Origin: Chitinophaga vietnamensis
GTDB taxonomy: Bacteria > Bacteroidota > Bacteroidia > Chitinophagales > Chitinophagaceae
Reading direction: 5' to 3'
DNA: 64,000 nucleotides
Assembly: GCF_902167635.1 (NCBI RefSeq)
Contig: NZ_CABHMS010000001.1
Location: forward strand, 930,001 to 994,000
Shown here piece after piece: positions 1,587 to 63,985 of the stretch; positions within the stretch are counted from its first letter, which is position 1, and each line of letters opens with the position of its first letter. Under the pieces are notes generated by a model, which ran no database searches, was not told where the DNA came from, and saw only the letters and a program-made list of their open reading frames with translations. The position numbers and the translations under genes were made by a program.

Positions 1587-2192
1587 ATGAAACGTACACT
1601 CCTGCTGTTGGCTGTTGTTGTGTGCTCGGCATTTCTTGTCCCCAAACAACCCACTGTTCGGGAAGACCGCAGCCTGCTCCTCTCGGAATTGAAAAACACC
1701 AAAGAGAACCTGCTCAAAACAGTGCAGGGGCTCAGCGACGCCCAACTGCAATACAAGCCCGCACCTGACCGCTGGTCAGTAATAGAATGTGTGGAGCACA
1801 TCACCCTGATCGAAAGATTTTTCCGCGAAGCGGAACAATCCATGATAAAGGAACCTGCCAACCCCGACAAAAAGAAAGACGTAAAGGTAACGGACGACTT
1901 TATCGTGAAGTCGGTAGAAGACCGCAGCCACAAACGCCAGGCGCCGGAATTTGGGCAGCCTAAAAATACTTTTGGCTCGCCATCCGCTACCATAGCGGCT
2001 TTCAGCGCACAGCGCGATTCCCTGATCGATTATGTTACTAACACCACGGATGATATGCGCAATCATCTCACCGACAAATCCCCTTTTGGCACTATCGATG
2101 CCTATCAACTGCTCCTGCTGGATGCCGCCCATACGGCCAGGCATACTAAACAAATGCAGGAAGTGAAGGCGGATAGCGGATTTCCTAAATAA
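1587..2192 (+). CDS. Exported DinB-like four-helix protein
   Basis: A 201-residue protein with an N-terminal hydrophobic signal (1-18) and a DinB_2-type body. The stretch PDRWSVIECVEHITLIE and the late HTARHTKQ carry the histidines that bind a metal in the DinB/YfiT superfamily. Family members are mostly uncharacterised metal-binding proteins; some are thiol transferases. The signal peptide places this one in the periplasm, and no specific substrate can be inferred. Its Lys-stop codons form the first bases of a long palindrome shared with the convergent mtaB gene. Confidence 0.7.
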   Translation: MKRTLLLLAVVVCSAFLVPKQPTVREDRSLLLSELKNTKENLLKTVQGLSDAQLQYKPAPDRWSVIECVEHITLIERFFREAEQSMIKEPANPDKKKDVKVTDDFIVKSVEDRSHKRQAPEFGQPKNTFGSPSATIAAFSAQRDSLIDYVTNTTDDMRNHLTDKSPFGTIDAYQLLLLDAAHTARHTKQMQEVKADSGFPK

Positions 2193-2270
2193 TTTATAGT
2201 ACAAAGGAGAAGGGCTTTTGTTGTGCACTGGCACAGCAAAAGCCCTTCTCCTTTGTACTATAAATTATTT
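2187..2270. repeat. 40-bp-arm palindrome between convergent stop codons
   Basis: Left arm 2187-2220 and right arm 2237-2270 are perfect reverse complements (34 bp). Six more inner positions pair with one G-T (2221-2226 with 2231-2236), leaving a 4-base loop. The left arm begins with the last sense codon and stop of the DinB-like gene; the right arm ends in the mtaB stop. It would work as a terminator in both directions, but its length is far beyond a normal terminator stem. Confidence 0.95.
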
Positions 2271-3546
2271 ATCTAAGTTCCCAGTCGATGATCTGATTGC
2301 TCCATTCTTCACGGAAAGGAGTGGTGATCTTGATGTAATTATCTGTATAGCCTTCCATCATACCATCTTTGTTGTGTGATTCAAACAATACTTTCCTGGT
2401 TTGATGAAGATGTTGTTCGGTGAAGAACTGCATCTTTTTATGGCTGAGGTTACGCAGCGCCTTGTTGCGCTCGTGGCGTACATTTACGGGCACTACCGGC
2501 TGAATATCCAGTGCCTGGGTATTGGCGCGTTCAGAATAGGTGAACACGTGCAGGTAGGATATATCCAGCTGATGAAGGAAGTCGTAAGTATCGCGGAAAT
2601 GTTCATCGCTTTCGGAGGGGAAGCCTACGATCACATCCACGCCGATGGCGCAATGCGGCATGAACTGTTTGATGAGCGCTACTTTTTCGGCATAGAGCTC
2701 GCGGCGGTAGCGGCGGCGCATCAGGCCGAGAATATGATTGCTGCCGCTTTGCAGCGGAATATGGAAATGCGGCATGAACTTGCGGCTGTTGGCTACAAAT
2801 TCGATGATCTCATTGCTCAGCAGGTTCGGCTCTATTGAAGAGATGCGGTAACGCTGGATACCTTCCACCTGGTCGAGCGCCTGTACCAGTTCATAAAAAG
2901 TTTCTTCTCTTTTTTTGCCGCCTTCGAAGCCTTTACCGAAATCGCCCAGGTTTACGCCGGTGAGTACGATCTCTTTCACGCCGCTGGCAGCAAGGGTTTC
3001 CGCGTTTTTAATCACGTTGGTGATACTATCGCTGCGGCTTTTGCCACGAGCCATCGGGATGGTGCAGAAAGCGCAGTTATAGTCACAGCCGTCCTGCACC
3101 TTCAGGAAGGTACGGGTGCGGTCGTTGATAGAGTAGGAAGAATGGAAGGAGTTTACTTCCTCGATATCGCAGGAACATATTTTAGTGCTGTCGCCTTTGG
3201 TGAGCGTTTTCAGGTGTTCGGCGATATTGAATTTTTCAGCGGCGCCCAGTACGAGGTCAACTCCTTCGATGGAGGCGATCTCCTGGGGTTTGAGCTGGGC
3301 GTAGCATCCGGTGATCACGACCATGCTTTCGGGCGCGCGGCGCTGTATGCGCCGTACCAGCTGCCGGCATTCCTTGTCGGCATTGTCTGTTACCGAGCAG
3401 GTATTGATCACATATACATCTGCGGTGTTGTCGAAATCTGTTTTCACAAAACCATCCTGTTCCAGCAACCTGCTTAAAGTGGAGGTTTCTGAAAAGTTCA
3501 GCTTACAGCCGAGTGTATGAAATGCTACTGTTTTTACTTGTTCCAT
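2269..3546 (-). CDS. mtaB: tRNA N6-threonylcarbamoyladenosine (t6A37) methylthiotransferase MtaB
   Basis: Radical-SAM methylthiotransferase that adds a methylthio group to t6A37 of ANN-decoding tRNAs. The UPF0004 N-terminal domain has cluster cysteines C14, C50 and C81. The radical-SAM motif CDYNCAFC gives C154, C158 and C161. A TRAM-like C-terminal end follows. The order and the GCKLNF start match MtaB rather than MiaB or RimO. The start at 3546 (MEQVKTVAFHTLGCK) is chosen because an earlier ATG at 3567 adds seven residues that relatives lack. 425 residues, a normal length. Confidence 0.9.
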   Translation of the reverse strand: MEQVKTVAFHTLGCKLNFSETSTLSRLLEQDGFVKTDFDNTADVYVINTCSVTDNADKECRQLVRRIQRRAPESMVVITGCYAQLKPQEIASIEGVDLVLGAAEKFNIAEHLKTLTKGDSTKICSCDIEEVNSFHSSYSINDRTRTFLKVQDGCDYNCAFCTIPMARGKSRSDSITNVIKNAETLAASGVKEIVLTGVNLGDFGKGFEGGKKREETFYELVQALDQVEGIQRYRISSIEPNLLSNEIIEFVANSRKFMPHFHIPLQSGSNHILGLMRRRYRRELYAEKVALIKQFMPHCAIGVDVIVGFPSESDEHFRDTYDFLHQLDISYLHVFTYSERANTQALDIQPVVPVNVRHERNKALRNLSHKKMQFFTEQHLHQTRKVLFESHNKDGMMEGYTDNYIKITTPFREEWSNQIIDWELR

Positions 3547-3628
3547 AAAGGAGGGCAAAGGTAGCAACTTTTTATGTCATAGACAGGTCAGGAATTTTAA
3601 CTATTTTACGCTGCGCTTTTAATTGATT

Positions 3629-4066
3629 ATGAAATCTCTGCAGAAATACCTTCCAGTTGGATTGTTGGCCTTGTTACTGGTGGCCGGATGGCACCAGCAT
3701 TGGTGGAAAAGTAATATACCTGGCGCCGGCGACCGGCCGTCGATGACCCGGGTGCCGCGTCCAACGGCCGCCCAGGCAGGTGATATCCTCAACCGCCACG
3801 CACATCTTGAATATACGAAACATGCCAGGTGTCGGATGGAATGCCGTCATGTGACTGAAGCCGAAGTGGGAGAGATCCTGAGCGACGGTAAAGTGAACAT
3901 GGAGAAGTCCAATCCCAACGATCATCCCTGCCCAACGTATGCCCTGGAGGGATATTCCCATGAAGGGCAGCACCTGCGGATTGTTTTCGCACCTTGCGAT
4001 GATAGTAATACGCGGGTGATTACCTGCATCGACCTGGATAAGGACTGGTCTTGCAGTTGTGAATAA
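3629..4066 (+). CDS. DUF4258 domain protein with N-terminal membrane anchor
   Basis: A 145-residue protein. Residues 6-20 form one hydrophobic segment (signal or anchor), followed by a Pro/Thr-rich linker. The body LEYTKHARCRMECRHVTEAEV, later PTYALEGYSHEGQHLRIVFAPC and a Cys-rich end (CSCE), matches DUF4258. This small alpha/beta fold is related to RelE/BrnT-like toxins, but the anchored form has no known toxin role. No antitoxin partner lies beside it, so a toxin call is not supported. ATG at 3629 is used; an in-frame TTG lies two codons before it. Confidence 0.6.
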   Translation: MKSLQKYLPVGLLALLLVAGWHQHWWKSNIPGAGDRPSMTRVPRPTAAQAGDILNRHAHLEYTKHARCRMECRHVTEAEVGEILSDGKVNMEKSNPNDHPCPTYALEGYSHEGQHLRIVFAPCDDSNTRVITCIDLDKDWSCSCE

Positions 4067-4080
4067 TTTCGACCCTGCAA

Positions 4081-4106
4081 TTCATAATTCGTAATTCGTA
4101 ATTATT
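4081..4106. repeat. Single arm of the AATTACG repeat family
   Basis: ATAATTCGTAATTCGTAATT is two to three tandem copies of the 7-nt unit CGTAATT. It is the same sequence as one arm of the palindrome at 32811-32896, but here no second arm is present. It lies 15 nt after the stop of the DUF4258 gene. Confidence 0.8.
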
Positions 4107-4149
4107 GTTGTAGTTTTCGGCCTTAATTCATCACTCTCAAGGGGCGTTT

Positions 4150-7358: not shown

Positions 7359-7360
7359 TA

Positions 7361-7506
7361 TTTAGGGATTTAGGGATTTTCGGATTTATGAATTTAATTG
7401 GAGCGGAGATGATATTGTTTATCTCCGCTCCAATTAAATTCATAAATCCGTAAATCCGTAAATCCGTAAATTCATAAATCCGTAAATCCATAAATCCGTA
7501 AATTCT
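7361..7506. repeat. Family A palindrome with tandem 8-nt units (AAATCCGT)
   Basis: The inner arms 7381-7410 and 7421-7450 are perfect (30 bp, 10-base loop). Outside them pairing continues to 7361/7470 with three mismatches. The right side then goes on as a tandem array of about eight units of AAATCCGT and variants (AAATTCAT, AAATCCAT) to 7506. The element starts two bases after the priA stop codon. No protein-coding potential is seen in it. Confidence 0.93.
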
Positions 7507-11586: not shown

Positions 11587-12603
11587 ATGCGCATCTCCGA
11601 AAATGTTCCGCTCCAGCCATATAATACGTTTGGTATTGCCGCTACGGCACGCTATTTCGCATCTTTCAGCCATGTAGAAGACCTGCAGGCGCTGCTGGCC
11701 GATACCCGCGCCAGCAGTCTGCCTCACATGATATTGGGCGGCGGCAGCAATATCCTGCTCACACAGGATTACAATGGTATCATCCTCAAAAATGAGATCA
11801 AAGGCATCACTACCATCAGGGAAGATAACGACTACGTATATGTGAAAGCCGGCGCAGGGGAGAACTGGCATGGCTTTGTGCAGCATTGCATTGCCGCCAA
11901 CCTCGCCGGACTGGAAAACCTGTCGCTCATACCCGGCAACGTAGGGGCCAGCCCGATGCAGAATATTGGCGCATATGGCGTGGAGATAAAAGACTGCTTT
12001 CATGAACTGGAAGCGCTGCACCTGAAAGACCAGCAGGTAGCGACTTTCAGCAATGCGGACTGCCAGTTCGGTTACCGTGAAAGCGTTTTCAAAAAGCAAT
12101 ACCGTCAGCAATTTGCGATCCTGTCTGTCACCTATCGTTTAAATAAAACACCTCATTTCAATACCAGCTACGGCGCGATAGAAGAGGAGCTGCGCCGCAT
12201 GGGGGTACAGGAATTGTCTATCCAGGCGATCAGCCAGGCGGTGATCAATATCCGTTCGTCCAAACTGCCTGATCCTGCGCAGATCGGCAATGCCGGCAGC
12301 TTCTTCAAAAACCCTTCTATTGATCAAGCCAAATACGAACAGCTGAAAGCCGCTTTCCCTGACATTGTCGCATACCCGTTGCCCGACGATCATTACAAAC
12401 TTGCCGCCGGCTGGCTGATCGAGCAATGCGGCTGGAAAGGCTATCGCTCCGGCGATGCCGGCGTGCACGCCAAACAGGCGCTGGTACTGGTGAACTATGG
12501 CCATGCCAAAGGCAATGAGATCTATGCGCTGTCGCAGGAGATCGTGGATAGCGTGATGGAAAAGTTTGGTGTGGAGTTGGAGAGAGAGGTGAATATTATT
12601 TGA
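11587..12603 (+). CDS. murB: UDP-N-acetylmuramate dehydrogenase (UDP-N-acetylenolpyruvoylglucosamine reductase)
   Basis: FAD enzyme that reduces UDP-GlcNAc-enolpyruvate to UDP-MurNAc in the cytosolic branch of peptidoglycan synthesis. The FAD-binding half has NTFGIAATARYF and GGGSNILL. The catalytic half has IPGNVGASPMQNIGAYG, the GSFFKNP serine motif and the end HAKQALVLVN. At 338 residues with an extended C-domain it is a type I (E. coli-like) MurB. ATG at 11587 (MRISENVPLQPYNTFG) is the family start; an in-frame ATG at 11500 lies inside the divergent gene. Its TGA stop forms the end of a palindrome shared with ypdA. Confidence 0.93.
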   Translation: MRISENVPLQPYNTFGIAATARYFASFSHVEDLQALLADTRASSLPHMILGGGSNILLTQDYNGIILKNEIKGITTIREDNDYVYVKAGAGENWHGFVQHCIAANLAGLENLSLIPGNVGASPMQNIGAYGVEIKDCFHELEALHLKDQQVATFSNADCQFGYRESVFKKQYRQQFAILSVTYRLNKTPHFNTSYGAIEEELRRMGVQELSIQAISQAVINIRSSKLPDPAQIGNAGSFFKNPSIDQAKYEQLKAAFPDIVAYPLPDDHYKLAAGWLIEQCGWKGYRSGDAGVHAKQALVLVNYGHAKGNEIYALSQEIVDSVMEKFGVELEREVNII

Positions 12604-12713
12604 GGATTTTTTGATTTACGGATTTATGAATTTATGGCGGATCTGAAGTCTGCCACAAATTCGTAAATCCGTAAATCCGTAAATTCGTAAATCCGTAAAT
12701 CAAAAAATTCTCA
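12601..12713. repeat. Family A palindrome running exactly from stop codon to stop codon
   Basis: Outer arms 12601-12633 and 12681-12713 are reverse complements with two mismatches in 33 bp. Each arm begins with TGA, the stop of murB on one strand and of ypdA on the other. Inside, GAATTTATGGCGGA (from 12628) pairs imperfectly with TCTGCCACAAATTC (to 12662). The right half carries five tandem 8-nt units (AAATTCGT, AAATCCGT). It shares its sequence with 7361-7506, 24278-24348 and 41335-41455. Confidence 0.95.
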
Positions 12714-13673
12714 AATCTTAATATTGCTTATAATCCTGTCCGCATGTTCCCTTGAATTCTCAATAAACCACAAATGCGTGTCCATGCCGCCGCACACTAC
12801 CCCTGCTAAATAAATACGCGGCATATTTGTTTCCATCGTTATCGGATTGTAGGCCGGATGTTTCTTGCCATCGTCAGACAGTGCAATGCCTGTTTGTTCG
12901 AGGAAGCGGAAGTTAGGCTGGTAGCCTGTCATGGCGATCACAAAATCGTTAGGGATGGTGATCATACCTTCCGGGGTGTTGATATCCACTTCCTGCTCGC
13001 GGATAGCCTGTACGGTGGAGTGGAAATAGGCTTTGATCGAGCCTTCCTTGATACGGTTTTCGATATCAGGTTTTACCCAGTATTTCACACGGGAGCCGAT
13101 ACCTTCTTCCCGGATCACCATGGTCACATGTGCGCCTTTGCGGTAGGTTTCGAGAGCCGCATCCACAGCGGAGTTGTGGGCGCCGATCACGAGCACTCGC
13201 TGGGTAGCGTAGAAGTGAGGATCTTTATAGTAATGCGTTACTTTAGGAAGATGTTCACCGGGTATGTTGAGCATGTTGGGGATATCATAGAAACCGGTGG
13301 CGATCACTACATGCCGGGCATGGTATGTTCCTTTGGAAGTAGTAATCGTATACTCGTTGGCGTTAGGTGTTACCTGTTGTACTTCTTCAAACAATTTAAT
13401 GTTGATGTGATGGGAGGTGGCTACGCGGCGGTAGTATTCCAAAGCCTCTGGCCTGGTGGGTTTCGGGTTGATGGAAACAAAGGGCACGCCTCCGATCTCC
13501 AACCTTTCGGAGGTGGAGAAAAAGGTCATATACAGGGGATAGTTGAATAAGGAATTGACGAGACATCCTTTCTCTATCACTATGTAAGTAAGTCCGGCCT
13601 TCTGTGCCGAGAGGGCGCAGGCGATACCAATAGGCCCTCCGCCTATGATCAGTACATCAAATGCAGCATTCAT
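12711..13673 (-). CDS. ypdA: YpdA-type FAD-dependent disulfide reductase
   Basis: A 320-residue flavoprotein of the thioredoxin-reductase fold, with FAD motif GGGPIG (11-16), NAD(P)H motif VIGAHNSAVDAA and the C-terminal LAGVVCGGMDTHLWFIENSREHA. NYPLYMTFFSTSERLEIG is characteristic of YpdA, which reduces bacillithiol disulfide (BSSB) with NADPH in Firmicutes. Like those enzymes it lacks a CxxC redox pair. A bacillithiol role is inferred; the biosynthesis genes bshA/B/C are not in this window. It is the last gene of a probable minus-strand operon with the amidotransferase, 12 nt away. Confidence 0.8.
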   Translation of the reverse strand: MNAAFDVLIIGGGPIGIACALSAQKAGLTYIVIEKGCLVNSLFNYPLYMTFFSTSERLEIGGVPFVSINPKPTRPEALEYYRRVATSHHINIKLFEEVQQVTPNANEYTITTSKGTYHARHVVIATGFYDIPNMLNIPGEHLPKVTHYYKDPHFYATQRVLVIGAHNSAVDAALETYRKGAHVTMVIREEGIGSRVKYWVKPDIENRIKEGSIKAYFHSTVQAIREQEVDINTPEGMITIPNDFVIAMTGYQPNFRFLEQTGIALSDDGKKHPAYNPITMETNMPRIYLAGVVCGGMDTHLWFIENSREHADRIISNIKI

Positions 13674-17335: not shown

Positions 17336-17364
17336 AATTACGAATTACGAATTAAGAATTACGG
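17336..17364. repeat. Single arm of the AATTACG repeat family
   Basis: Three to four tandem 7-nt units (AATTACG, AATTACG, AATTAAG, AATTACG) in a 139 nt gap between two minus-strand genes. The sequence and the order of units are the same as in the left arm of the perfect palindrome at 32811-32896. No second arm is present here. Confidence 0.85.
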
Positions 17365-17443
17365 TGTTTATTAATCAATGTATGGGCAGAATGTTAATGA
17401 ACCATATTGCATCTACCAATATCCAGCCCCGTAGGGGCGATAT

Positions 17444-17806
17444 CTATTCTTTAATGGAAAATAAAATGCTGTCGCCGGATTGAATACGGTTGATCTGTTT
17501 CATACTGGAGAATGGATCGAGTGGCGACCAATCGCTGGAAATATAGAGCAGTACCGGCTTTCCAATGAAGGCTTGGAATTGGGCGGCATTTTTTTTATGC
17601 GCGATATAATAAATACGGGGATCCTCTTTCAGGTGAATAACAGTACCGGGCGATCCATCTTTTACGATCTCCACGATTCCTCTTCTGGCGGTACAACGGT
17701 GTAAGGATGCATGGCTGCTGCCGGGGAGGCCGGAGATCAGCAATACCAAAATCAGTGCAGCGGCCAGCAACAGGGCCATGCCGCCTTTCTTGTAGGTTGT
17801 CGTCAT
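17444..17806 (-). CDS. Small single-pass membrane protein, unknown
   Basis: A 120-residue protein with one N-terminal transmembrane helix (residues 10-27) and a small extracytoplasmic domain of about 85 residues. GIVEIVKDGSPGTVIHLKEDPRIYYIA suggests a short beta-rich fold. I do not recognise a family. It lies between an acidic protein and an SH3-like lipoprotein on the same strand, possibly one transcript. Confidence 0.5.
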   Translation of the reverse strand: MTTTYKKGGMALLLAAALILVLLISGLPGSSHASLHRCTARRGIVEIVKDGSPGTVIHLKEDPRIYYIAHKKNAAQFQAFIGKPVLLYISSDWSPLDPFSSMKQINRIQSGDSILFSIKE

Positions 17807-21048: not shown

Positions 21049-21174
21049 TTATTTCTCGCAAAGTTCGCAGAGGAGCAAAGCAGCAAAGGCGGGCTTCGCC
21101 CGCAGAAAAAATATTTTTACCCGCGGGCGAAGCCCGCCTTTGCTGCTTTGCTGCTTTGCCCCTCTGCGGGAAAT
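21049..21174. repeat. Family C palindrome (CGCAAAG / GGGCGAAGCCC type)
   Basis: The left half (21049-21111) and right half (21112-21174) are near reverse complements: TTTCTCGCA..GCAGAGGAGCAAAGCAGCAAAGG against the complement of CCTTTGCTGC..CCCTCTGCGGGAAA, with one extra 9-nt unit (GCTGCTTTG) on the right. Each arm holds GGCGGGCTTCGCCCGC, itself a hairpin (21088-21103 and its mirror). It starts two bases after the GH20 stop, inside the minus-strand glycan train. Confidence 0.92.
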
Positions 21175-24265: not shown

Positions 24266-24277
24266 AGCACAAAATAT

Positions 24278-24348
24278 TTATGGATTTACGGATTTTTTGA
24301 TTTTGGGATTTAAATCAGAAAATCCGTAAATCCGTAAATCAAAAAATT
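24278..24348. repeat. Family A repeat, partial palindrome
   Basis: GGATTTACGGATTTT (24282-24296) pairs with AAAATCCGTAAATCC (24319-24333). A flanking ATTTTTTGATTT and its complement are in shuffled order. The block begins directly after the stop of the alkaline-phosphatase-like gene on the minus strand. Confidence 0.85.
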
Positions 24349-25231
24349 ATTTGAATGCTTCTGCCACGGGCCTGCCAATCCATACCTGTGGCGTTTTGAG
24401 GCCGAATATCCAGGCGAGGGTAGCGGCGGTGTCGAAGGTCATTACGCTGCCGGTGATCTCTTTGTTCTGGCGAACGCCGGGCCCGCGCATGATCCAGGGT
24501 ATCTGCATCTCCTCCATGGTTTTACCGCCATGTCCTTTTTTGATGCCGCCATGATCTGCTGTGAGCAGGATGATGGTATTATCCCACATGCCGGCATCTT
24601 TCACCGCTTGTAAAATTTTCCCTAGCAGGATATCGTTCTTGTGTACCTGTGCAAAATATTCGGGAATATTATGACCGATATTATGACCGGTGCCATCCGG
24701 CTCATCGAAATGTACGAAAAGAAAATCCGGTTTTTTTGATTTGATGTAATCCACGGCAGTGGCGGTGGCCAGACTGTCGTTATCGTGGCAGGGCACTGCG
24801 TAGTTCACCGCTTCTTTCGGGAAAAGGTAGCCGATGCCTTGCCAGCTGTAAATAACGCCTATTTCCGCATTGGGTTTCTGTTCGCGCAGCAGGGTGTAGA
24901 TAGAAGGGAACATGCCGTATTTGTCGAGCATGCGGGAAGGCAGTTCCGGTTTTTTGCTGTCCCATTCTGTATATCCGTGGATCTCGGGGCCGGCGCCCAT
25001 TACCATAGATGCCCAGTTAACGGCACTGGAAGAGGGGAGTACACTGCGTGCCTGTAATGTCCAGGCGCCGTCTTTCATCATTTGTTTCATGTTAGGATTG
25101 TCTACTTTCGGGAAGCAGTAAGCGCCGAAGCCGTCCATTCCTACCAGGATCACGTGTTTCACGCCTTTCACTTGCGCATGCGCGAAAAGCGCAGCCAGCA
25201 TGCATCCTGTTGCAATGATCAGTTTTTTCAT
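24347..25231 (-). CDS. Secreted alkaline-phosphatase-superfamily hydrolase (type I phosphodiesterase/NPP-like)
   Basis: 294 residues with signal peptide MKKLIIATGCMLAALFAHAQ. ILVGMDGFG gives the first metal Asp, LPSSSAVNWASMVMG the nucleophile region, HFDEPDGTGHNIGH the middle metal ligands and LTADHGGIKKGHGG the late Asp-His pair. This is the metal layout of nucleotide pyrophosphatase/phosphodiesterases (PF01663). The natural substrate is unknown; glycan-cluster context suggests a phosphodiester in a host-derived molecule. Confidence 0.8.
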   Translation of the reverse strand: MKKLIIATGCMLAALFAHAQVKGVKHVILVGMDGFGAYCFPKVDNPNMKQMMKDGAWTLQARSVLPSSSAVNWASMVMGAGPEIHGYTEWDSKKPELPSRMLDKYGMFPSIYTLLREQKPNAEIGVIYSWQGIGYLFPKEAVNYAVPCHDNDSLATATAVDYIKSKKPDFLFVHFDEPDGTGHNIGHNIPEYFAQVHKNDILLGKILQAVKDAGMWDNTIILLTADHGGIKKGHGGKTMEEMQIPWIMRGPGVRQNKEITGSVMTFDTAATLAWIFGLKTPQVWIGRPVAEAFK

Positions 25232-26055: not shown

Positions 26056-26070
26056 ATTTGTTTATTTGTT

Positions 26071-26140
26071 TATTTTTTTATTTGGCTATTTCGCTTCCAG
26101 GAACTTTTTCCTGGAAGCGAAATAGCCAAATAAAAAAATA
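26071..26140. repeat. Perfect 33-bp-arm palindrome with 4-base loop
   Basis: Left arm 26071-26103 and right arm 26108-26140 are exact reverse complements around CTTT. The core GCTATTTCGCTTCCAGGAA is not shared with the other repeat families; the outer part is A/T-rich (TATTTTTTTATTTG). It lies between glycosylasparaginase and cutC, both on the minus strand, 14 nt after the former's stop. Confidence 0.95.
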
Positions 26141-26154
26141 ATAAAATGATGAAA

Positions 26155-27210
26155 TTAAAAGTAGTGTTTGCCATCGATCAGCACATTGCTGGTATCGCTG
26201 GTGCACACAGCATAGCTAAAGCCTTTCTGGAGGCAATATGCGCCGTGCTGGCCTTTTTTGTTGAGGGCAAGAAAACCTACCTGTATCTCTTTGGCTTTTG
26301 ACGGGCTTCTCTTTACGATGCGGTTCACTGCTTCTTTGCAGGCGGCTTCCGGAGGGTAACCCTGACGCATCAGTTCCACTACGAGGTGGCTGCCTACGAT
26401 CTTGATCACTTCTTCGCCTACGCCGGTGCTGGTGGCAGCGCCTACTTCATTATCTACGTATAGTCCTGCGCCGATGATCGGCGAGTCGCCTACGCGGCCA
26501 TGCAGTTTGAAGGCCATGCCACTCGTGGTGCAGGCGCCGGAGAGGTTGCCTGCGGCGTCCATGGCCACCATGCCGATGGTATCGTGATTGTATACATTGC
26601 CGGGCAGCATCAGCGGATTAAAGGCGGTAGCGCCTTCCTGCTTGCCGTACGACTGGTTTTCGATGTTGATGACTGGTTTGTATTCAGATTTTTTCAGCCA
26701 CTCTTTCCAGGCTTTTTCTGATTCGGGCGTGAGCAGGTTCTCTTTCTGGAAACCATTGGCCAGCGCGAATTGCAGGGCGCCGTCGCCAACGAGCATCACA
26801 TGCGGCGTTTTTTCCATCACGAGGCGCGCCACGGAGATGGCGTGGGTCACATGTTCCAAAGCCGCTACAGATCCGCAGTTGCCGAATTCGTCCATGATGC
26901 AGGCATCGAGCGTTACGCGGCCGTCGCGGTCGGGATAGCCGGAGTAACCAACGGTGTGGTTGTTGGGATCTGCTTCCGGTACGCGCACGCCGGCTTCTAC
27001 AGCGTCGAGGGCGCGGCCGTTCTTCTTCAATATCTCCCAGGCGGCAGCATTGGCGGCACGGCCAAAATCCCAGGTGGATACCACGATGGGCTTACCTGTC
27101 ACGACGCCTTTTTTCGACTGTGCGCGTAGAGGCGTTCCCGTTACTCCGTCTAAAGAGAAAACAGCGGCGCCCAGGGCCGCTGTTTTCAAAAAATGTCTTC
27201 TATCTTTCAT
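26155..27210 (-). CDS. N4-(beta-N-acetylglucosaminyl)-L-asparaginase (glycosylasparaginase)
   Basis: N-terminal nucleophile hydrolase that splits GlcNAc-Asn, the last linkage of N-glycoproteins, into aspartate and the amino sugar. 351 residues with a Tat-like leader DRRHFLKTAALGAAVFSLDG. Autocleavage and catalysis should be at the Thr of YNHDTIGMVAMD (about residue 208), followed by GRVGDSPIIGAGLYVD and GVGEEVIK, as in the family. It is 10 nt from the ROK kinase gene. It is the strongest pointer that this block handles N-linked glycoprotein cores. Confidence 0.93.
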   Translation of the reverse strand: MKDRRHFLKTAALGAAVFSLDGVTGTPLRAQSKKGVVTGKPIVVSTWDFGRAANAAAWEILKKNGRALDAVEAGVRVPEADPNNHTVGYSGYPDRDGRVTLDACIMDEFGNCGSVAALEHVTHAISVARLVMEKTPHVMLVGDGALQFALANGFQKENLLTPESEKAWKEWLKKSEYKPVINIENQSYGKQEGATAFNPLMLPGNVYNHDTIGMVAMDAAGNLSGACTTSGMAFKLHGRVGDSPIIGAGLYVDNEVGAATSTGVGEEVIKIVGSHLVVELMRQGYPPEAACKEAVNRIVKRSPSKAKEIQVGFLALNKKGQHGAYCLQKGFSYAVCTSDTSNVLIDGKHYF

Positions 27211-31671: not shown

Positions 31672-32814
31672 ATGATACAGACAACAAGAGAGCAATTCAT
31701 CCGCCTCTTCGGAAAAGAGCCACTGATAGTAGTTTCGCCCGGAAGGATCAATCTTATTGGAGAACATACCGATTACAACGACGGTTTTGTACTACCCGCA
31801 GCGATCGATAAAAAAATTGTATACGCCATTGCGCTGAATGGCACGCAACAATGTACCGCGCATGCTGTATTCACAAATGAAACGGTGTCTTTTTCACTCG
31901 ACAAAGTGCAGCCCACCAAAGGCTGGATCAATTACCTGATGGGCGTAGTGTTCCAGTTGCAGGAACGTGGCTTGCCGATGCAGGGCTTCGATTGTGTGGT
32001 GGCGGGTGATATTCCGGTAGGCGCGGGCATGTCTTCATCCGCAGCAGTAGAAGGCGGCCTGGTAGCGGCGCTGGACAAACTGCTCGGCTATGGCCTCGAT
32101 CGCATGCAGATGGCGCTCATCGGCCAGAAAGCTGAACACACCTTTCCTGGCGTGAAATGCGGTATCATGGACCAGTTTGCAAATCTTCACGGAAAGAAAG
32201 ACCAGGTGATGCGCCTCGATTGCCGCAGCCTGGCCTATGAATATTTTCCTTTCAATTTTCCCGAATACAAAGTGGTGCTTTGCAATTCAATGGTGCATCA
32301 CTCGCTGGCATCATCAGCGTACAACGTACGTCGTCAGCAATGTGAAGAAGGCGTGAAGGCCATCCGGCTGAAACACGCTGCCGTGCAGTCTTTGCGCGAT
32401 GCCAGCATGGCCATGCTGGAAGAAGTGCGCGCACAGCTTGATCCCAAAGTATACGACCGCTGCGCATACGTGATCGCCGAGATACAACGCGTGCAGGATG
32501 CCACCCAGCTCTTGCAGGCCGGCGATCTTGCGAAATTCGGGGAACTGATGTATGCTACTCATGAAGGACTCAGCAAGCTCTATGAAGTGAGTGTACCGGA
32601 ACTGGATTTCCTCGTGTCGCTCGCCCGCCAGCGGGAAGAAGTGGCTGGCGCGCGCCTGATGGGTGGCGGCTTTGGCGGCTGTACCATCAACCTCGTAAAA
32701 GCAGATAAGGTAGATGATTATATTTCGTTTATACAATCCCGTTATAAAGCGGAATACGGAAAAGTACCGGAAGTGTACGTAACAACGATACAGGACGGTG
32801 TAACAGTCTTATAA
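31672..32814 (+). CDS. galK: Galactokinase
   Basis: GHMP kinase that phosphorylates galactose at C1, the first Leloir step, in the cytosol. The galactokinase signature GRINLIGEHTDYNDG is at about residues 24-38, the ATP loop PVGAGMSSSAAVEG at about 110-123, CGIMDQFANLHG carries the catalytic base Asp, and GARLMGGGFGGC closes the fold. 380 residues, a normal length. ATG 31672 (MIQTTREQFIRLFG) is the family start; the longer frame from 31606 includes the upstream terminator region. Its TAA stop lies in the first bases of an 86-bp palindrome. Confidence 0.93.
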   Translation: MIQTTREQFIRLFGKEPLIVVSPGRINLIGEHTDYNDGFVLPAAIDKKIVYAIALNGTQQCTAHAVFTNETVSFSLDKVQPTKGWINYLMGVVFQLQERGLPMQGFDCVVAGDIPVGAGMSSSAAVEGGLVAALDKLLGYGLDRMQMALIGQKAEHTFPGVKCGIMDQFANLHGKKDQVMRLDCRSLAYEYFPFNFPEYKVVLCNSMVHHSLASSAYNVRRQQCEEGVKAIRLKHAAVQSLRDASMAMLEEVRAQLDPKVYDRCAYVIAEIQRVQDATQLLQAGDLAKFGELMYATHEGLSKLYEVSVPELDFLVSLARQREEVAGARLMGGGFGGCTINLVKADKVDDYISFIQSRYKAEYGKVPEVYVTTIQDGVTVL

Positions 32815-32896
32815 TTACGAATTACGAATTAAGAATTACGGCCTGCCTGGTAGCTACCAGGCAGGCCGTAATTCTTAATTCGTAATTCGTAATTAT
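32811..32896. repeat. 86-bp perfect palindrome with no loop (family B arms)
   Basis: 32811-32853 and 32854-32896 are exact reverse complements: 43 bp per arm, no spacer, no mismatch. The outer 30 bases of each arm are the AATTACG/AATTAAG 7-nt array; the centre is GCCTGCCTGGTAGCTACCAG with its complement. The galK stop (32812-32814) is inside the left edge, and the GH109 stop (32896-32898) meets the right edge. Confidence 0.97.
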
Positions 32897-36544: not shown

Positions 36545-36759
36545 GTTCTCGCAAAGGCGCAAAGCAGCAGAGCAGCGAAGGCGGGCTTCGCCCGCATAAA
36601 TCTGGCTCAGGATTACAGGATTGAAAGGATTTATCAGGATTTTCGAATTGATCTTCGCGAATCTTTTTTAATCCTGTAATCCTGGGTTTAATCCTGTAAT
36701 CCTGAGCCAGATTTATGCGGGCGAAGCCCGCCTTCGCTCCTCTGCGCCTTTGCGGGAAC
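36545..36759. repeat. Composite palindrome: family C outside, family D (AATCCTGT) inside
   Basis: The outer arms (from 36545 and to 36759) hold CGCAAAGGCGC and GGCGGGCTTCGCCCGC (36580-36595) with its mirror. The next inner part, ATAAATCTGGCTCAGGATTACAGGATT read in two pieces, is exactly mirrored, giving about 48 bp of perfect arm. The centre (36623-36689) contains further AATCCTGT/AGGATT units. The outer arms differ by a small indel near 36560-36575. It abuts the GH29 stop codon. Confidence 0.93.
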
Positions 36760-39123: not shown

Positions 39124-39202
39124 ATTTCTTGATTTGAGAATTGATGAATTGTATTGAAGCGGTTTAATAAATCAAAAAATCCGTAAATCCATAAATCAGT
39201 AA
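39124..39202. repeat. Family A repeat, one main arm, between argG and argC
   Basis: AAATCAAAAAATCCGTAAATCC (from 39170, in two pieces) repeats the family A array; the 5' side, ATTTCTTGATTTGAGAATTGATG, is a weak mirror. The block fills the gap between the argG stop (39123) and the argC start (39203) completely. Confidence 0.75.
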
Positions 39203-40177
39203 ATGACCATGGTAAAAGTTGGAATCGTAGGCGGAGCAGGATATACAGGAGGGGAGATGATCAGGTTATTGCTGCATCATCCGGCGGTAACTATTTCGTT
39301 TGTACATAGCCGTAGTAATGCCGGCAACCCGCTGTATGCGGTGCATGCCGACCTGCTGGGAGATACGGACCTCACCTTTACCGGTGAGCTGAGCAATGAT
39401 ATTGACGTGATGTTCCTGTGCCTCGGCCATGGCGAATCCAGAAAGTTCCTGGAAGCTAATGATGTTGCGCCACACGTGAAAGTGATAGACCTGAGCCAGG
39501 ATTTTCGTTTAGGCGAAACCGTCAATGGCCGCGAATTTATCTACGGCCTGCCCGAAATGCAACGTGAGAAGATACAATCAGCAAAGAACATCGCCAACCC
39601 CGGCTGCTTTGCTACCGCCATACAGTTAGGACTCCTGCCACTGGCTAAAGCCGGTCTGCTACAGGAAGTACATGCTACCGGCATCACCGGCTCCACCGGC
39701 GCAGGACAGAGCCTTCAGGCTACCTCGCACTTCACCTGGAGAGCTAACAACGTATCTACCTACAAAGTGCTTACCCACCAGCACCTCAAAGAGATCCGAC
39801 GAAGCCTTCAGCTGCTGCAGCCGGAATTCGCCGCCGATATCAACTTTGTACCGGTACGGGGCGATTATCCAAGAGGTATCTGGATCACTTCCTACACACA
39901 GAGCGATCTGTCGCTGGAAGCCGCTGTGCAGCTGTATAAAGACTACTACGCCGGTCATCCGTTCACACACGTGAGCGATAAACAGATCGACCTCAAACAG
40001 GTGGTGAATACCAACAAATGTCTGATCCAGCTGGAGAAGGTAAACGGCAAACTCGTGATCCACTCCATTGAAGACAACCTGCTCAAAGGCGCTTCCGGTC
40101 AGGCCGTACAGAACATGAACCTGATGTGCGGCCTGGATGAAACGGCAGGACTTAAACTGAAGTCCATCGTTTTCTAA
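39203..40177 (+). CDS. argC: N-acyl-gamma-glutamyl-phosphate reductase
   Basis: NADPH-dependent reduction of N-acylglutamyl phosphate to the semialdehyde. The Rossmann motif is VGIVGGAGYTGGEMIRLL (6-23) and the catalytic Cys is in ANPGCFATAIQLG (about residue 134). The closing catalytic His region is TGAGQSLQATSHFTWRANNVSTYK in the family order. 324 residues. The start is directly at the end of an intergenic repeat; two ATGs (39203, 39209) are possible. Confidence 0.93.
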   Translation: MTMVKVGIVGGAGYTGGEMIRLLLHHPAVTISFVHSRSNAGNPLYAVHADLLGDTDLTFTGELSNDIDVMFLCLGHGESRKFLEANDVAPHVKVIDLSQDFRLGETVNGREFIYGLPEMQREKIQSAKNIANPGCFATAIQLGLLPLAKAGLLQEVHATGITGSTGAGQSLQATSHFTWRANNVSTYKVLTHQHLKEIRRSLQLLQPEFAADINFVPVRGDYPRGIWITSYTQSDLSLEAAVQLYKDYYAGHPFTHVSDKQIDLKQVVNTNKCLIQLEKVNGKLVIHSIEDNLLKGASGQAVQNMNLMCGLDETAGLKLKSIVF

Positions 40178-40209: not shown

Positions 40210-41334
40210 ATGAAACTTTTTGATGTATATCCGGTTAATAATATTGTTATAGATAAAGCGCTCGGCTCTCATGTATGGGACGACCAAGGCACTGAATACC
40301 TCGATCTCTACGGCGGCCATGCCGTGATCTCTATCGGTCATACGCATCCGCATTATGTAAAGCGCCTCACCGACCAGCTGCACAAAGTAGGTTTCTATTC
40401 CAACTCTGTGAAGATGCCTTTGCAGGAACAGCTGGCAGCCTTGCTGGGCAAGGTTTCCGGCAAGGAAGACTATCAGCTCTTCCTCTGCAACTCCGGCGCG
40501 GAAGCCAATGAAAATGCACTGAAACTGGCTTCTTTCCATAATGGGAAAAAGAAGATACTGGCATTCAAAAAATCTTTTCATGGCAGAACATCACTGGCGG
40601 TAGCAGCTACCGACAACCCGAAGATCGTAGCGCCGGTGAATGAAACAGATAACGTTGTGTTCCTGCCCTGGCAGGATGAAGCTGCGCTGGAACAGGCTTT
40701 CAAGGATCATGAAGTATCTTCTGTGATCATCGAAGGTATACAGGGCGTAGGTGGCATCAATGTGGCCAGTCCGGCATTCCTGCAAAAGATACGCAGTCTT
40801 TGCGATGCCCACAATGCCGTATTCATAGCGGATTCCGTGCAATGTGGCTATGGCAGGAGCGGTAAATTTTTCTCCCACGATTTCGCTGGCGTAAATGCAG
40901 ACATTTACACCATGGCGAAAGGGATGGGTAATGGTTTCCCGATCGGCGGTATCATCATCTCCCCGAAAATCGCGCCCAGTCATGGTATGCTGGGAACTAC
41001 CTTCGGCGGCAACCACCTCGCCTGCGCGGCAGCACTGGCCGTACTGGAAGTGATTGAATCTGAAAAGCTGATCGACAATGCCGCTAACATCGGAAATTAC
41101 CTGATGGAGCAGCTGCGCACTTTCCGGCAAGTAAAAGAAGTAAGGGGTCGTGGCCTCATGATCGGTATCGAGCTGCCGGAAGAACTGGCGCATGTAAGAA
41201 AAGCATTGCTCGGCGCCCACAAGATCTTCACCGGCGAAGCCAAGCCCAACGTGATCCGCCTGCTCCCGTCGCTGGCACTCACCAAAGCCCACGCAGATCA
41301 ATTTTTAGAAGCATTCGGAAAAGAAGTTAAATAG
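40210..41334 (+). CDS. argD: Acylornithine aminotransferase
   Basis: PLP enzyme that transfers an amino group from glutamate to N-acylglutamate semialdehyde. It has CNSGAEANENALKLA, the FKKSFHGRT block, ADSVQCGYGRSGKFF and the Schiff-base Lys in YTMAKGMGNGFPIGG; the end is GRGLMIGIELPEE. 374 residues. Its stop codon meets a family A palindrome that fills the gap to the next gene. Confidence 0.93.
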   Translation: MKLFDVYPVNNIVIDKALGSHVWDDQGTEYLDLYGGHAVISIGHTHPHYVKRLTDQLHKVGFYSNSVKMPLQEQLAALLGKVSGKEDYQLFLCNSGAEANENALKLASFHNGKKKILAFKKSFHGRTSLAVAATDNPKIVAPVNETDNVVFLPWQDEAALEQAFKDHEVSSVIIEGIQGVGGINVASPAFLQKIRSLCDAHNAVFIADSVQCGYGRSGKFFSHDFAGVNADIYTMAKGMGNGFPIGGIIISPKIAPSHGMLGTTFGGNHLACAAALAVLEVIESEKLIDNAANIGNYLMEQLRTFRQVKEVRGRGLMIGIELPEELAHVRKALLGAHKIFTGEAKPNVIRLLPSLALTKAHADQFLEAFGKEVK

Positions 41335-41455
41335 ATTTTGGAATTTTTTGATTTACGGATTTATGGATTTGTGGAAACGGGAATATGGTAAAATGCAAGA
41401 TGTTGCCGTTCCCACAAATTCGAAAATCCGTAAATCCCAAAATTCCAAAATCCCA
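41335..41455. repeat. Family A palindrome between argD and argF'
   Basis: GATTTTGGAATTTT..GATTTACGGATTT on the left (41334-41380) mirrors AAATCCGTAAATC..AAAATTCCAAAATC on the right (41409-41455), about 47 bp with a handful of mismatches around a loop of about 28 bases. It starts at the argD stop and ends five bases before the argF' start, inside an operon. Confidence 0.9.
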
Positions 41456-44860: not shown

Positions 44861-44935
44861 ACGCAAAGCCGCGAAGTGGCAAAGAACGCAAAGAATATCT
44901 TTGCTGCTTATGCTGCTCCGCTGCTTTGCGAGAAC
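44861..44935. repeat. Degenerate family C repeat before argH
   Basis: ACGCAAAGCCGCGAAGTGGC and further CGCAAAG units on the left face CTTTGCTGC...CTGCTTTGCGAGAAC on the right. The mirror is imperfect and lacks the GGGCGAAGCCC core. It begins two bases after the acetyltransferase stop. Confidence 0.8.
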
Positions 44936-44947
44936 AAATACTCGATT

Positions 44948-46279
44948 ATGAAATTGTGGCAAAAAGATAAAGCATCGCTGGCAGCAGTGGAAACGTTCAC
45001 CGTCGGTAAAGACCGTGAAATGGATGCTTTCCTCGCACCCTTCGATGTACTCGGTTCCATGGCCCACATCACCATGCTGCAAAGCATCGGGCTGCTCGAA
45101 AAAGAAGAACTGACCGTACTTAAAGCGGAACTGAAAAATATTTACCAGGAAATACAGGAAGGGAATTTTACGCTGGAAGAAGGCGTAGAAGATATTCACT
45201 CCCAGGTAGAACTATTGCTCACACGCCGTTTGGGCGAAGTAGGCAAGAAGATACACAGCGGCCGTTCCCGCAACGACCAGGTGCTGGTTGACCTCAAGCT
45301 GTTCCTGCGCCACGAACTGCAGCTGATGGTAGAAGAAGTACAGGCCCTGTTCACTTTACTGCAATCGAAAAGTGAGGAGTACAAACATCAGCTGATGCCG
45401 GGTTATACACACCTGCAAATAGCGATGCCCTCCTCTTTCGGGCTGTGGTTCGGCGCCTACGCCGAAAGCCTGGTGGATGACCTCACCATGCTGCAAGGCG
45501 CTTACCGCGTGGTGAACAAGAACCCGCTTGGCTCTGCCGCCGGCTATGGTTCTTCGTTCCCCCTTGACCGTGAGCTCACCACCTCCCTGCTCGGGTTCGA
45601 CACGCTCAACTACAACGTCGTATATGCCCAGATGGGCCGCGGCAAAACAGAAAAGCTGGTGGCCTTTGCATTGGCAGGCATCGCCTCTACCATCGCTAAA
45701 ATGGCCATGGACGCCTGTTTGTTCATGAACCAGAACTTCGGCTTCATCAGCTTCCCCGATGAGCTCACCACCGGCTCCAGCATCATGCCGCACAAAAAGA
45801 ACCCGGATGTATGGGAACTGATCCGCTCTCATGGCAACAAGATACAGGCATTACCCAACGAGATCGCCATGATGATCACCAACCTGCCATCGGGCTACCA
45901 CCGCGACTTACAGCTGCTGAAAGAAAACCTGTTCCCGGCTTTTCAAACGTTGAAAGACTGTATCCGCATGAGCCGCCTGATGCTGGAAAATATCCGCATC
46001 AAGGATCATATTCTCGACGATGAAAAATACCAATACCTTTTCAGCGTAGAAGTGGTGAACAACTTCGTGCTGCAAGGCACGCCATTCCGGGAGGCGTATA
46101 AAAAAGTAGGACTGGATATCGAAAACGGAACGTTCTCTCCTGAAAAAGAAGTGAAACATACACATGCCGGCAGCATCGGCAACCTCTGCACCGCGCAGAT
46201 CAAAGCTCAGATGGATGCGGTGGTTAAAGGTTTCCCGTTTGAAAAAGTAGAACAGGCAATTGCTGCGTTACTAAAATAA
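44948..46279 (+). CDS. argH: Argininosuccinate lyase
   Basis: Splits argininosuccinate into arginine and fumarate. Fumarase/aspartase superfamily signature GSSIMPHKKNPD near residue 280, with SGRSRNDQVLVDLKL and MPGYTHLQIAMP upstream. 443 residues. ATG 44948 (MKLWQKDKASLAAVETF) is used; the open frame extends upstream to 44876, but that part is only translated intergenic repeat. Last gene of the operon, followed by a terminator. Confidence 0.93.
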   Translation: MKLWQKDKASLAAVETFTVGKDREMDAFLAPFDVLGSMAHITMLQSIGLLEKEELTVLKAELKNIYQEIQEGNFTLEEGVEDIHSQVELLLTRRLGEVGKKIHSGRSRNDQVLVDLKLFLRHELQLMVEEVQALFTLLQSKSEEYKHQLMPGYTHLQIAMPSSFGLWFGAYAESLVDDLTMLQGAYRVVNKNPLGSAAGYGSSFPLDRELTTSLLGFDTLNYNVVYAQMGRGKTEKLVAFALAGIASTIAKMAMDACLFMNQNFGFISFPDELTTGSSIMPHKKNPDVWELIRSHGNKIQALPNEIAMMITNLPSGYHRDLQLLKENLFPAFQTLKDCIRMSRLMLENIRIKDHILDDEKYQYLFSVEVVNNFVLQGTPFREAYKKVGLDIENGTFSPEKEVKHTHAGSIGNLCTAQIKAQMDAVVKGFPFEKVEQAIAALLK

Positions 46280-48696: not shown

Positions 48697-48722
48697 TAGT
48701 AATATGTATTTCTTGTTTTCAA

Positions 48723-48797
48723 ATTCCTAACCAGCATTACCTGGTCCAGGTTCGGTGGGTGTGATCTCAGCCTGAAAGTAAGGCACCCCATTGGAAC
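48723..48797 (-). promoter_or_regulatory. TPP (THI-box) riboswitch
   Basis: Read on the minus strand: GTTCC, AATGGGGTGCC, CAGGCTGAGATCACACCC, GAACCTGGACCAGGTAATGC, TGGTTAGGAAT. These are the conserved GGGGUGC, CUGAGA, ACCC, GAACCUG and UAAUGC elements of the thiamin pyrophosphate aptamer. P1 can form from 48793-48797 with 48723-48727. The receptor start is only 26 nt further, so ligand binding probably blocks translation, not transcription. Confidence 0.93.
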
Positions 48798-48821
48798 GCT
48801 TGTGCAGCGCTATTTCCAGTA

Positions 48822-49572: not shown

Positions 49573-49650
49573 ATTTAGGAATTTACTGATTTTCGGATTT
49601 TTGGATTTGATGTAAATCCTTAGATCCAAAAATCAATAAATTCCTAAATT
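49573..49650. repeat. Family A-like palindrome between tRNA-fMet and era
   Basis: ATTTAGGAATTTACTGATTT and GGATTTTTGGATTT on the left (49573-49608) mirror 49615-49650 with about five mismatches in 36 bp around a 6-base loop. It begins right after the tRNA terminator T-run and ends 16 nt before era. Confidence 0.88.
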
Positions 49651-51990: not shown

Positions 51991-52206
51991 ATGAAAAAAG
52001 TATTTGTATTCGCAGCTGCTGCCAGCCTGTTCTTCGTAGCTTGCAATGGTGGTAAATCTACTACTACTGATTCTACTGCTGCTCCAGTTGACACTGTAAC
52101 TGCTGCTGCTCCTACAGCTGCTCCTGTTGCTGATTCAGCTGCTAAAGTTGACACTGCTGCTCACGCTGCTGCTCCTGCTGCTGATTCAGCTGCTGCTAAA
52201 AAGTAA
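51991..52206 (+). CDS. Small Ala-rich lipoprotein
   Basis: 71 residues. The lipoprotein signal VFVFAAAASLFFVAC gives lipidated Cys18. The mature 54 residues are about 37% Ala with Thr, Pro, Asp and Ser, no aromatic residue and one His, and repeated ADSAA and AAP units. Ala is coded almost only by GCT, unlike the mixed GCC/GCG/GCA of neighbours, which points to high expression. It has its own promoter and terminator. Likely an unstructured surface or periplasmic spacer lipoprotein; function unknown. The reverse-strand open frame here is a shadow. Confidence 0.75.
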   Translation: MKKVFVFAAAASLFFVACNGGKSTTTDSTAAPVDTVTAAAPTAAPVADSAAKVDTAAHAAAPAADSAAAKK

Positions 52207-58080: not shown

Positions 58081-58206
58081 TCTCGCAAACTCACAAAGCT
58101 GCAAAGTCGCAAAGTTTTTTTCTTTATTTACAGAAGATTTATATAGATTATAAATTTTATATATAAAATCTTTGTTGCTTTGCTCCTCTGCGAACTTTGC
58201 GCGCAA
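58081..58206. repeat. Family C repeat in a divergent promoter region
   Basis: TCTCGCAAACTCACAAAGCT and GCAAAGTCGCAAAG on the left face CTTTGTTGCTTTGCTCCTCT and GCGAACTTTGCG on the right. The centre is A/T-rich and also self-complementary around TTTATATATAAA. It lacks the GGGCGAAGCCC core. It lies between topA and the DUF2520 gene, both starting outward, so it cannot be a 3' terminator here. Confidence 0.85.
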
Positions 58207-58223
58207 CTCAAAAAACCTGATCC

Positions 58224-61088: not shown

Positions 61089-61095
61089 ACAACAA

Positions 61096-63603: not shown

Positions 63604-63714
63604 GTTATTATAATATTTTTTAATGATGTCGGAAGCATAGTATATCTATTGCAACTTTATCATTAAAAATCAACTTAAACAACCACTAAATCCATGAGGG
63701 GGCGGGAAGAAGGC

Positions 63715-63744
63715 AAAAAAAAAGCTCTTCCTTGTTGGAAGAGC
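63715..63744 (-). terminator. Intrinsic terminator of the SAM riboswitch
   Basis: On the minus strand GCTCTTCC, 5-base loop, GGAAGAGC (63744-63724) followed by nine T (63723-63715). It stands between the aptamer and the metB start, as in transcription-attenuating S-boxes. Confidence 0.88.
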
Positions 63745-63785
63745 CTTTCTGAATATATTATTCCGGTGAAGAATTATCTCTGCCA

Positions 63786-63905
63786 ACTTATCTTTCCCAC
63801 GCTGTTACGTGGGCAGGAATTAGCACCTTTTCTGTTGATCATTACTGATCAGAGATGGTTGCTAAGGCATCGCAGGGCCAAGTCCCTCCGCCTTTCTGGA
63901 TAAGT
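63786..63905 (-). promoter_or_regulatory. SAM-I (S-box) riboswitch
   Basis: Minus strand, in order: ACTTATCCAGAAAGGCGGAG, GGACTTGGCCCTGCGATGCC, TTAGCAACC, AGAAAAGGTGCTAATTCC, GCCCACG..CGTGGG, AAAGATAAGT. These are the S-box P1 strand, GGAGGGA-GGCCC, GGCAACC-like and AAGGUGCUAAUUCC elements, with P1 closed by ACTTATC/GATAAGT. SAM binding should end transcription before metB-hom. Confidence 0.95.
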
Positions 63906-63924
63906 GATGTGTAAGAACTGGGCG

Positions 63925-63932
63925 CAAATATA
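63925..63932 (-). promoter_or_regulatory. -7 box of the met transcript
   Basis: TATATTTG on the minus strand matches TAnnTTTG, about 20 nt before the aptamer. The -33 region lies in a family A repeat and has no clear TTTG. Confidence 0.5.
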
Positions 63933-63942
63933 AGGCACATTT

Positions 63943-63985
63943 TCGAATTTTCGAATTTTTTGATTTTCGGATTTATTTTTTTGAT
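63943..63985. repeat. Family A repeat arm at the window edge
   Basis: TTTTCGAATTTTTTGATTTT and CGGATTTATT repeat the family A array seen at 12601 and 24278. The rest of the element, and the gene it follows, lie beyond or at the window edge. Confidence 0.7.

Follow-up and report, generated by a model that had tools for sequence, protein, structure and literature searches.

What are the palindromes that lie at gene ends in the soil bacterium Chitinophaga vietnamensis, and which factor, if any, spreads them? The question arises from a 64,000-nucleotide stretch of its 6.31-Mb genome (assembly GCF_902167635.1, contig NZ_CABHMS010000001.1, positions 930,001 to 994,000; hereafter, the window). An initial annotation had listed sixteen intergenic places with inverted arms built from tandem units of 7–8 nucleotides (nt), assigned to families A (ATTTNNGG), B (AATTACG), C (GCAAAGCA) and D (AATCCTGT), and had proposed a spreading class of 3′-end elements. 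It missed a likely partner: an open reading frame (ORF) of the protein family PF05635 that is seated between arms of the same kind in related genomes. On the basis of the comparisons described below, we consider it fairly likely that the tandem-armed palindromes are ORF-less relatives of mobile elements resembling intervening sequences (IVSs) and that they owe their symmetry to re-copying, the PF05635 protein being a candidate trans-acting factor.

PF05635 ORFs are seated between inverted tandem arrays

PF05635 proteins are small, form four helices, and are known mainly from inserts within rRNA genes. The C. vietnamensis genome carries one PF05635 ORF (61.8 bits; cut-off 33.8), and the window palindromes themselves contain none. 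Matches are present in 22 of 60 genomes of the genus, 21 of them above the curated cut-off. Among 198 Bacteroidota genomes, 157 have a match, and copies number as many as 16. All four PF05635 proteins tested also match TIGR02436, and the Avd profile NF033474 matches one of four PF05635 ORFs (E = 2e-4).

These ORFs lie between inverted arrays of 7–8 nt units, including AATTATG, AATTACG, AATTAAG, AGCTTTT, AAAGCAT, AGTTGGC, AGTCCAT, GTCTTAA and ATTTNNGG. The arrangement was scored by comparing the 300 nt upstream of each ORF with the reverse complement of the 300 nt downstream. A threshold score of at least 14 was reached at 23 of 30 PF05635 loci from the genus versus 2 of 154 control genes, and at 12 of the best 30 loci from other Bacteroidota versus 4 of 120 offset controls. 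Plasmids show the same architecture, with 10 of 16 loci (from 20 plasmid records with a PF05635 match) passing the test versus 4 of 64 offsets. The passing loci are 8 of 14 from Cyanobacteriota plus those of Azospirillum and Gemmatirosa, whose ORF ends were set by hand because the records are unannotated there.

The ORF-bearing relatives have the feature by which IVS-type elements are recognized, which is terminal inverted repeats with a PF05635 ORF in the loop. Their flanking genes, where recognized, encode proteins and not 23S rRNA (no systematic rRNA search was made). For example, PF05635 ORFs on four cyanobacterial plasmids (L294, L299, L298, and L297) are seated between cas6 and cas4 in two cases, between cas10 and cmr3, and between the two ribonucleotide reductase genes, and all four are flanked by inverted 7–8 nt arrays. 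The location of a PF05635 ORF between such arrays at the ends of ordinary genes is a new observation. No published link of this family to tandem heptamer arms in general was found, in a search that left subscription journals mostly uncovered and is therefore weak evidence of novelty.

The two forms co-occur and share units

ORF-bearing elements and ORF-less palindromes have the same architecture, occur in the same genomes, and match in their units. Palindromes were surveyed over 464 kb in C. vietnamensis and over 21–100 kb in each relative. Palindromes with 7/8-nt periodicity number 7, 3, 10, 5, 5, 1, 0, 0, 1, 2, 0, 3, and 6 per 100 kb in 13 PF05635-bearing genomes, of which 10 are above zero, versus 0, 1, 0, 0, 0, 0, 0, and 0 in eight genomes without it (p = 0.0045). 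At 21-kb arg loci from 32 named species, palindromes of all kinds average 2.33 in the nine genomes with PF05635 versus 0.87 in the 23 without (p = 0.0099).

Unit matching was evident when 11-mers from the arms of ORF elements were ranked by their matches in 21 genomes. The genome of origin came first in 6 of 13 cases (one tie) and no lower than fourth in 10 of 13 (p = 5e-5 by permutation); the 11-mers of G039, G044, and G002 had no match in their own genome sample. Whole-genome counts for 60 species place unit A in all eight genomes that carry an ORF of the hemF–hemB locus cluster and in only 3 of the other 52, with one copy each. Within the hemF–hemB set there are 148, 30, 8, 7, and 5 copies in genomes with A-like arms and 6, 3, and 1 in those with TATTTG-type arms, a grouping noticed after the counts were made.

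Similarly, the four genomes richest in AGCTTTT (105–210 copies; next 46, 37, and 16) are precisely those with that arm in their ORF element, as identified by the flank test. For AATTACG, the top three counts (1422, 480, and 320) belong to carriers, but the remaining two of its five carriers have 116 and 10, and 40–185 copies are present in eight genomes that have other ORF arms or lack PF05635. Two of four further ORF loci carried units already known from palindromes of the same genome, and in C. solisilvae AATTACGAATTGCGAATTACGAATG occurs in the ORF element as well as in three or more ORF-less palindromes. An inner motif, GCGRAGAT, is present in 31 of 124 palindromes versus 1.95 expected (maximum 6 in 200 draws). 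It recurs across unit families and genomes and is found in 0 of 20 palindromes from genomes without PF05635.

This association could also arise if the palindromes came first and were spread by host processes alone, such as template switching, slippage, and gene conversion. PF05635 ORFs would then be passengers in the loops, like IVSs in rRNA stem–loops. In line with this explanation, several unit families in C. vietnamensis have no partner ORF. The concentration of tandem-arm palindromes in PF05635 genomes and an abundance of units that tracks the ORF arms for two unit types count against it, but an ORF that needs palindromes as homes would leave the same pattern.

Orthologous gaps gain, lose, and exchange palindromes

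If the palindromes were simply old terminators, orthologous gaps should carry the same structures diverging only by substitution. This pattern was not observed when gaps were compared in 34 of 80 retrieved loci from Chitinophaga and near kin. The ArgD protein of the window finds its closest matches in Chitinophaga species. The argG–argC gap in the window is filled by an imperfect family A element (39124–39204; array scan and pairing score), whereas in 30 of 33 relatives with both genes this gap is only 0–41 nt long. It measures 91 nt in relative L098, and in C. rupis and GbtcB8 it expands to 482 and 481 nt, respectively, with a PF05635 ORF between AAAGCATAAAGC arms. The argD–argF gap holds a family A palindrome in the window (41334–41452; inverted-repeat scan), a family B element in C. 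solisilvae, and at most 90 nt in 29 of 34 relatives.

The galK–GH109 gap was compared in 13 relatives that have both genes. A perfect, loopless family B palindrome covers both stop codons in the window (32811–32896; inverted-repeat scan). The C. solisilvae gap has family B with a different core, that of C. silvatica has family C, that of C. niastensis has AGCTTTT units, and those of L035–L037 have short terminator-like hairpins. Since unit types appear, vanish, and replace one another at orthologous gaps, the palindromes are not simply old terminators, and the original proposal that they spread is supported.

Arm sharing within genomes and symmetric change at one hairpin

Spreading is also supported by shared sequence. 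Runs of 18 nt or more are common to 83 of 1649 pairs of palindromes from the same genome versus 26 of 8647 pairs from different genomes. In a comparison of 664 same-genome pairs, drawn from 76 palindromes whose arms reach 32 nt or more, the outer ends were common to roughly three to four times as many pairs as the inner ends: 19 versus 5 pairs when 16 nt are compared with 16 nt, and 62 versus 23 when 16 nt are compared with the whole arm. The inner stems remain symmetric despite this rarer sharing.

The initial annotation also suggested that the symmetry is self-renewing, and one example, a plain hairpin 3′ of argH in eight species, agrees with this. In the alignment, 212 of 213 cells are paired and 13 of 38 pairs are altered on both sides, with a one-sided change in a single cell only. 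The rows were cut at detected arm ends, which inflates the paired share but not the preponderance of two-sided over one-sided changes. Double-sided changes are expected if one arm serves as the template for re-copying the other. No PF05635 match was obtained in seven of the eight species, and the eighth (L048) was outside that search; the renewal of symmetry is therefore probably due to the host, with the elements making use of it. The same seven species are a point for spread by host processes alone, an explanation that on balance we judge rather unlikely.

Placement at gene ends

Genes were called with a simple hexamer-based caller. In the surrounding 464 kb, 51 inverted repeats with arms of 20 nt or more lie between genes; they take in some plain terminator-like hairpins and repetitive extragenic palindromes (REPs). 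None lies in called coding sequence and none appeared in one order-2 Markov simulation of equal intergenic length; the intergenic palindromes are therefore not due to chance. Their measured density, about one per 6 kb in the window and one per 9 kb over 464 kb, is lower than the one per 4 kb given at first. The reported anchoring at stop codons holds: 21 of 28 co-directional palindromes start within 16 nt of a stop, versus a mean of 7.7 and a maximum of 15 for uniform placement in those gaps (2000 trials). By gap type, 23 palindromes are convergent, 28 co-directional, and none divergent, for 38, 164, and 57 gaps of at least 40 nt, respectively. Divergent-gap palindromes exist in two relatives (L039 and L051).

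The location downstream of genes, with no element in divergent gaps of this genome, might reflect intrinsic terminators or mRNA 3′-end stabilizers maintained by selection on RNA structure, and long hairpins could shield 3′ ends. However, a T run (at least 6 T in 10) is present at only 7 of 74 transcribed palindrome 3′ ends, and the elements as a group lack the U run that follows a terminator stem. Arm complementarity is 96% (84 mismatched positions out of 2084 across the 464-kb palindromes), and these mismatches have no G–U bias for the transcribed strand, on which ground RNA-structure selection was rejected as the cause of symmetry. Elements also lie among the genes of the arg cluster, and orthologous gaps are empty or carry other units. 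We therefore consider an origin as terminators or stabilizers improbable.

Other candidate enzymes and cargo

A RAYT/IS200-type enzyme had been suggested as the spreader. REPs are mobilized by REP-associated tyrosine transposases (RAYTs; Y1/HUH transposases), REP doublets (REPINs) are a known palindromic class, and the genome has one Y1 gene. Our search found that the flanks of this gene hold different REP arrays, CGCCCC..GGGGCG with TACCAATAT. In its 3.3-kb locus, a scan detected no A units and reading detected no B–D units. A RAYT origin was thus rejected for this genome, and we regard REP/REPIN-like elements as a highly improbable explanation. The RAYT-like gene (L009) lies at G000:C4:222211-222555, and its REP type recurs at window positions ∼17410–17450 and at a number of sites across the 464 kb.

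Reverse transcription was likewise rejected for this genome, in which a PF00078 search at E ≤ 0.001 came back empty, compared with matches in 3 of 14 control genomes. Other ORFs were rejected as regular cargo after a large-loop search of the 464 kb and of 100 kb from each of 20 relatives, in which no second recurring family was found. A possible cargo ORF lies between family D arms (54 nt, 87% complementary) at G000:C1:649636-650502; it presumably encodes a RibD_C/DHFR-like protein. Another palindrome (G053:C46:6161-6715) has 55-nt arms and a 445-nt loop that holds no ORF but consists of some five long units in tandem.

A proposed mechanism

The ORF-bearing form consists of inverted 7–8 nt arrays, often with an inner stem, in which a PF05635/TIGR02436 ORF replaces the loop. 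This plan is that of the IVS of some 23S rRNA genes, located instead at the 3′ ends of ordinary genes. Genomes carry arm units of their own, common to their ORF elements and their ORF-less palindromes, and the latter are probably non-autonomous. We infer movement and catalysis from sequence comparison. The PF05635 protein may act in trans, recognizing the tandem arms in their DNA or RNA form. A folded strand might then be self-primed or template-switched by host replication, and its arms would be re-copied into near-perfect inverted repeats. Gene ends might be favored because many units carry stop codons and because selection would clear other insertions.

A related protein is a homopentamer of four-helix bundles, according to the available text of one report (PMC4990558), and the PF05635 structure 2gsc, of XCC0516 from X. 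campestris, has five chains. A ring that might read successive units is an attractive proposal. It is possible, and we put it forward tentatively, that the four-helix PF05635 proteins represent a new kind of mobility factor that has neither a nuclease nor a reverse transcriptase domain; each lineage would read its own tandem 7–8 nt arm and copy hairpins into gene ends via host polymerases. If true, this class would account for many heptameric repeat families across phyla, for 23S rRNA IVSs, and for PF05635 genes listed with clustered regularly interspaced short palindromic repeat (CRISPR) systems.

A number of observations weigh against mobility driven by PF05635. Relatedness of species is uncorrected in the association tests, counts of all palindromes per 100 kb do not differ by PF05635 (p = 0.11), and 100 kb from each of three PF05635 genomes contain no tandem palindrome. 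The similarity of proteins and that of their arms, with one representative per locus, are not correlated (Mantel rho ∼0, p = 0.49). The sole PF05635 ORF of C. vietnamensis has unequal arms, with A units on one side and TGTGAGGA on the other, and misses the flank threshold (score 10); the genome offers no partner ORF for families B, C, D, or TATTTGNN. The A carrier G054 has one copy, which is not above its reversed-pattern control. AATTACG is common (80–185 copies) in several genomes with a differently armed ORF element and reaches 41 and 40 copies in two genomes without PF05635, and C. silvatica, also without PF05635, carries a family C palindrome. The units of the other two of the four further ORF loci are unmatched. 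Many of the 34 PF05635 loci, which fall into 13 clusters, are inherited vertically, and no nuclease or polymerase domain was found among the family matches. No target-site duplication was seen at the arg and galK gaps by eye (no systematic insertion sequence search was made). Finally, 90% of the heptamer repeats in Xanthomonas have the same neighboring ORFs in two species, according to the accessible text of that study (PMC4692102), and movement there is accordingly rare.

Even so, a mobile class served by PF05635 would join three loose ends, namely orphan bacterial heptameric repeats, a protein family of unassigned function, and rRNA intervening sequences. It would also offer a testable pair of protein and cognate arm for an element without a recognized recombinase. 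PF05635 genes are listed among cas-locus genes in the portions of two reports available (PMC3936711, PMC10910872); those between cas genes may be insertions and not immunity genes.

Features of the window

The count of at least 14 tandem-unit palindromes held in part. The sixteen places comprise nine clear and three weak examples; three others are arrays without a partner arm, and one is a palindrome without tandem units. Inverted arms of at least 20 nt are present at 10 of the 16 places, including the untandemed one. Pairing is weak at 39124, 44861, and 58081 (scores 10.5–13.5), and the arrays at 4081, 17336, and 63943 score 6–6.5. The background for these scores, 300 random 120-nt windows from the 464 kb with palindromes included, has a mean of 6.8 and a maximum of 35.

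Besides the argD–argF element, family A forms palindromes at 7360–7503 (arms 7360–7471), with an inner GAGCGGAGAT stem and a right array larger than the left; at 12598–12716 (inverted-repeat scan), where the arms cover both stops of a convergent pair; and at 24270–24353 (arms 24276–24339). Family C is represented at 21066–21168 (arms 21067–21159) by GCAAAGCA units with inner stem GGGCTTCGCCC, and at 36545–36759 (arms 36558–36754) by the outer part of a nested palindrome whose inner part is family D (AATCCTGT). The list of four families was incomplete, since the palindrome at 26056–26155 (place 26071; arms 26070–26141) is built from a further unit, TATTTGNN, with inner stem CGCTTCCAGG. An ATTT-octamer palindrome lies 3′ of tRNA-Met (49573–49649; inverted-repeat scan).

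Weakly paired family C arrays are found among the arg cluster genes (44861–44948, imperfect; pairing score) and at 58083–58210 (array scan and pairing score). The same two methods identified the lone arrays, which are AATTCGT (family B) at 4079–4103, AATTACG (family B) at 17336–17363, and ATTTTCGA (family A-like) at 63939–63974. The place without tandem units (2187) is a near-perfect palindrome at 2186–2271 with 41-nt arms and a 4-nt loop that spans both stops of a convergent pair; its best 24-nt 7/8 periodicity is just 0.59. The window also contains a CTG-rich repeat array at 52100–52197, in a stretch without a called gene, and S-adenosylmethionine (SAM) and thiamine pyrophosphate (TPP) riboswitches at 63785–63906 (−) and 48707–48800 (−), respectively, by Rfam gathering scores.

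Comparison with known systems

Like REPIN/RAYT systems, the elements described here are palindromic, intergenic, and dispersed as ORF-less copies that are apparently paired with a protein gene. Unlike them, no HUH transposase partner was found, the arms are tandem arrays, and inner stems are shared less than outer arms. The ORF-less copies also resemble miniature inverted-repeat transposable elements (MITEs) in having ends in common with ORF-bearing relatives, but differ in that no transposase partner was recognized and no target-site duplication was seen by eye.

Cyanobacterial short tandemly repeated repetitive (STRR) sequences are comparable 7-nt tandem intergenic units near an upstream ORF. 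Family B arrays, being tandem 7-nt intergenic units, qualify as heptameric simple sequence repeats (SSRs) of the STRR type; family A units are 8 nt long. The heptameric repeats of Xanthomonas and Nostoc are likewise tandem 7-nt intergenic units close to the upstream ORF, and X. campestris has ∼70 inverted GGGAATC heptamer pairs that lie on average 28 nt from it (PMC4692102). As far as the accessible text of that study goes, those repeats differ in being unlinked to PF05635, were studied as G-quadruplex repeats, and mostly keep their positions between two species; its authors report no general link to mobile elements. The TAACTGA arrays of Beggiatoaceae are mostly direct, according to the available part of their description (PMC4679880).

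PF05635 proteins are homologous to Avd, the four-helix protein of diversity-generating retroelements, according to the accessible text of one report (PMC10053308); unlike systems of that type, the C. vietnamensis genome has no reverse transcriptase match. In the 23S rRNA IVS of Coxiella, tandem heptamers adjoin a PF05635-type (S23p) ORF, and the terminal stem measures 28 bp (PMC4990558, available text). The ORF-bearing elements are similar in that a PF05635 ORF occupies the loop of a stem of terminal inverted repeats. They differ from the rRNA IVS in lying between ordinary genes, in their tandem 7–8 nt arms, in their many ORF-less copies, and in the genome-specific units that both forms carry.

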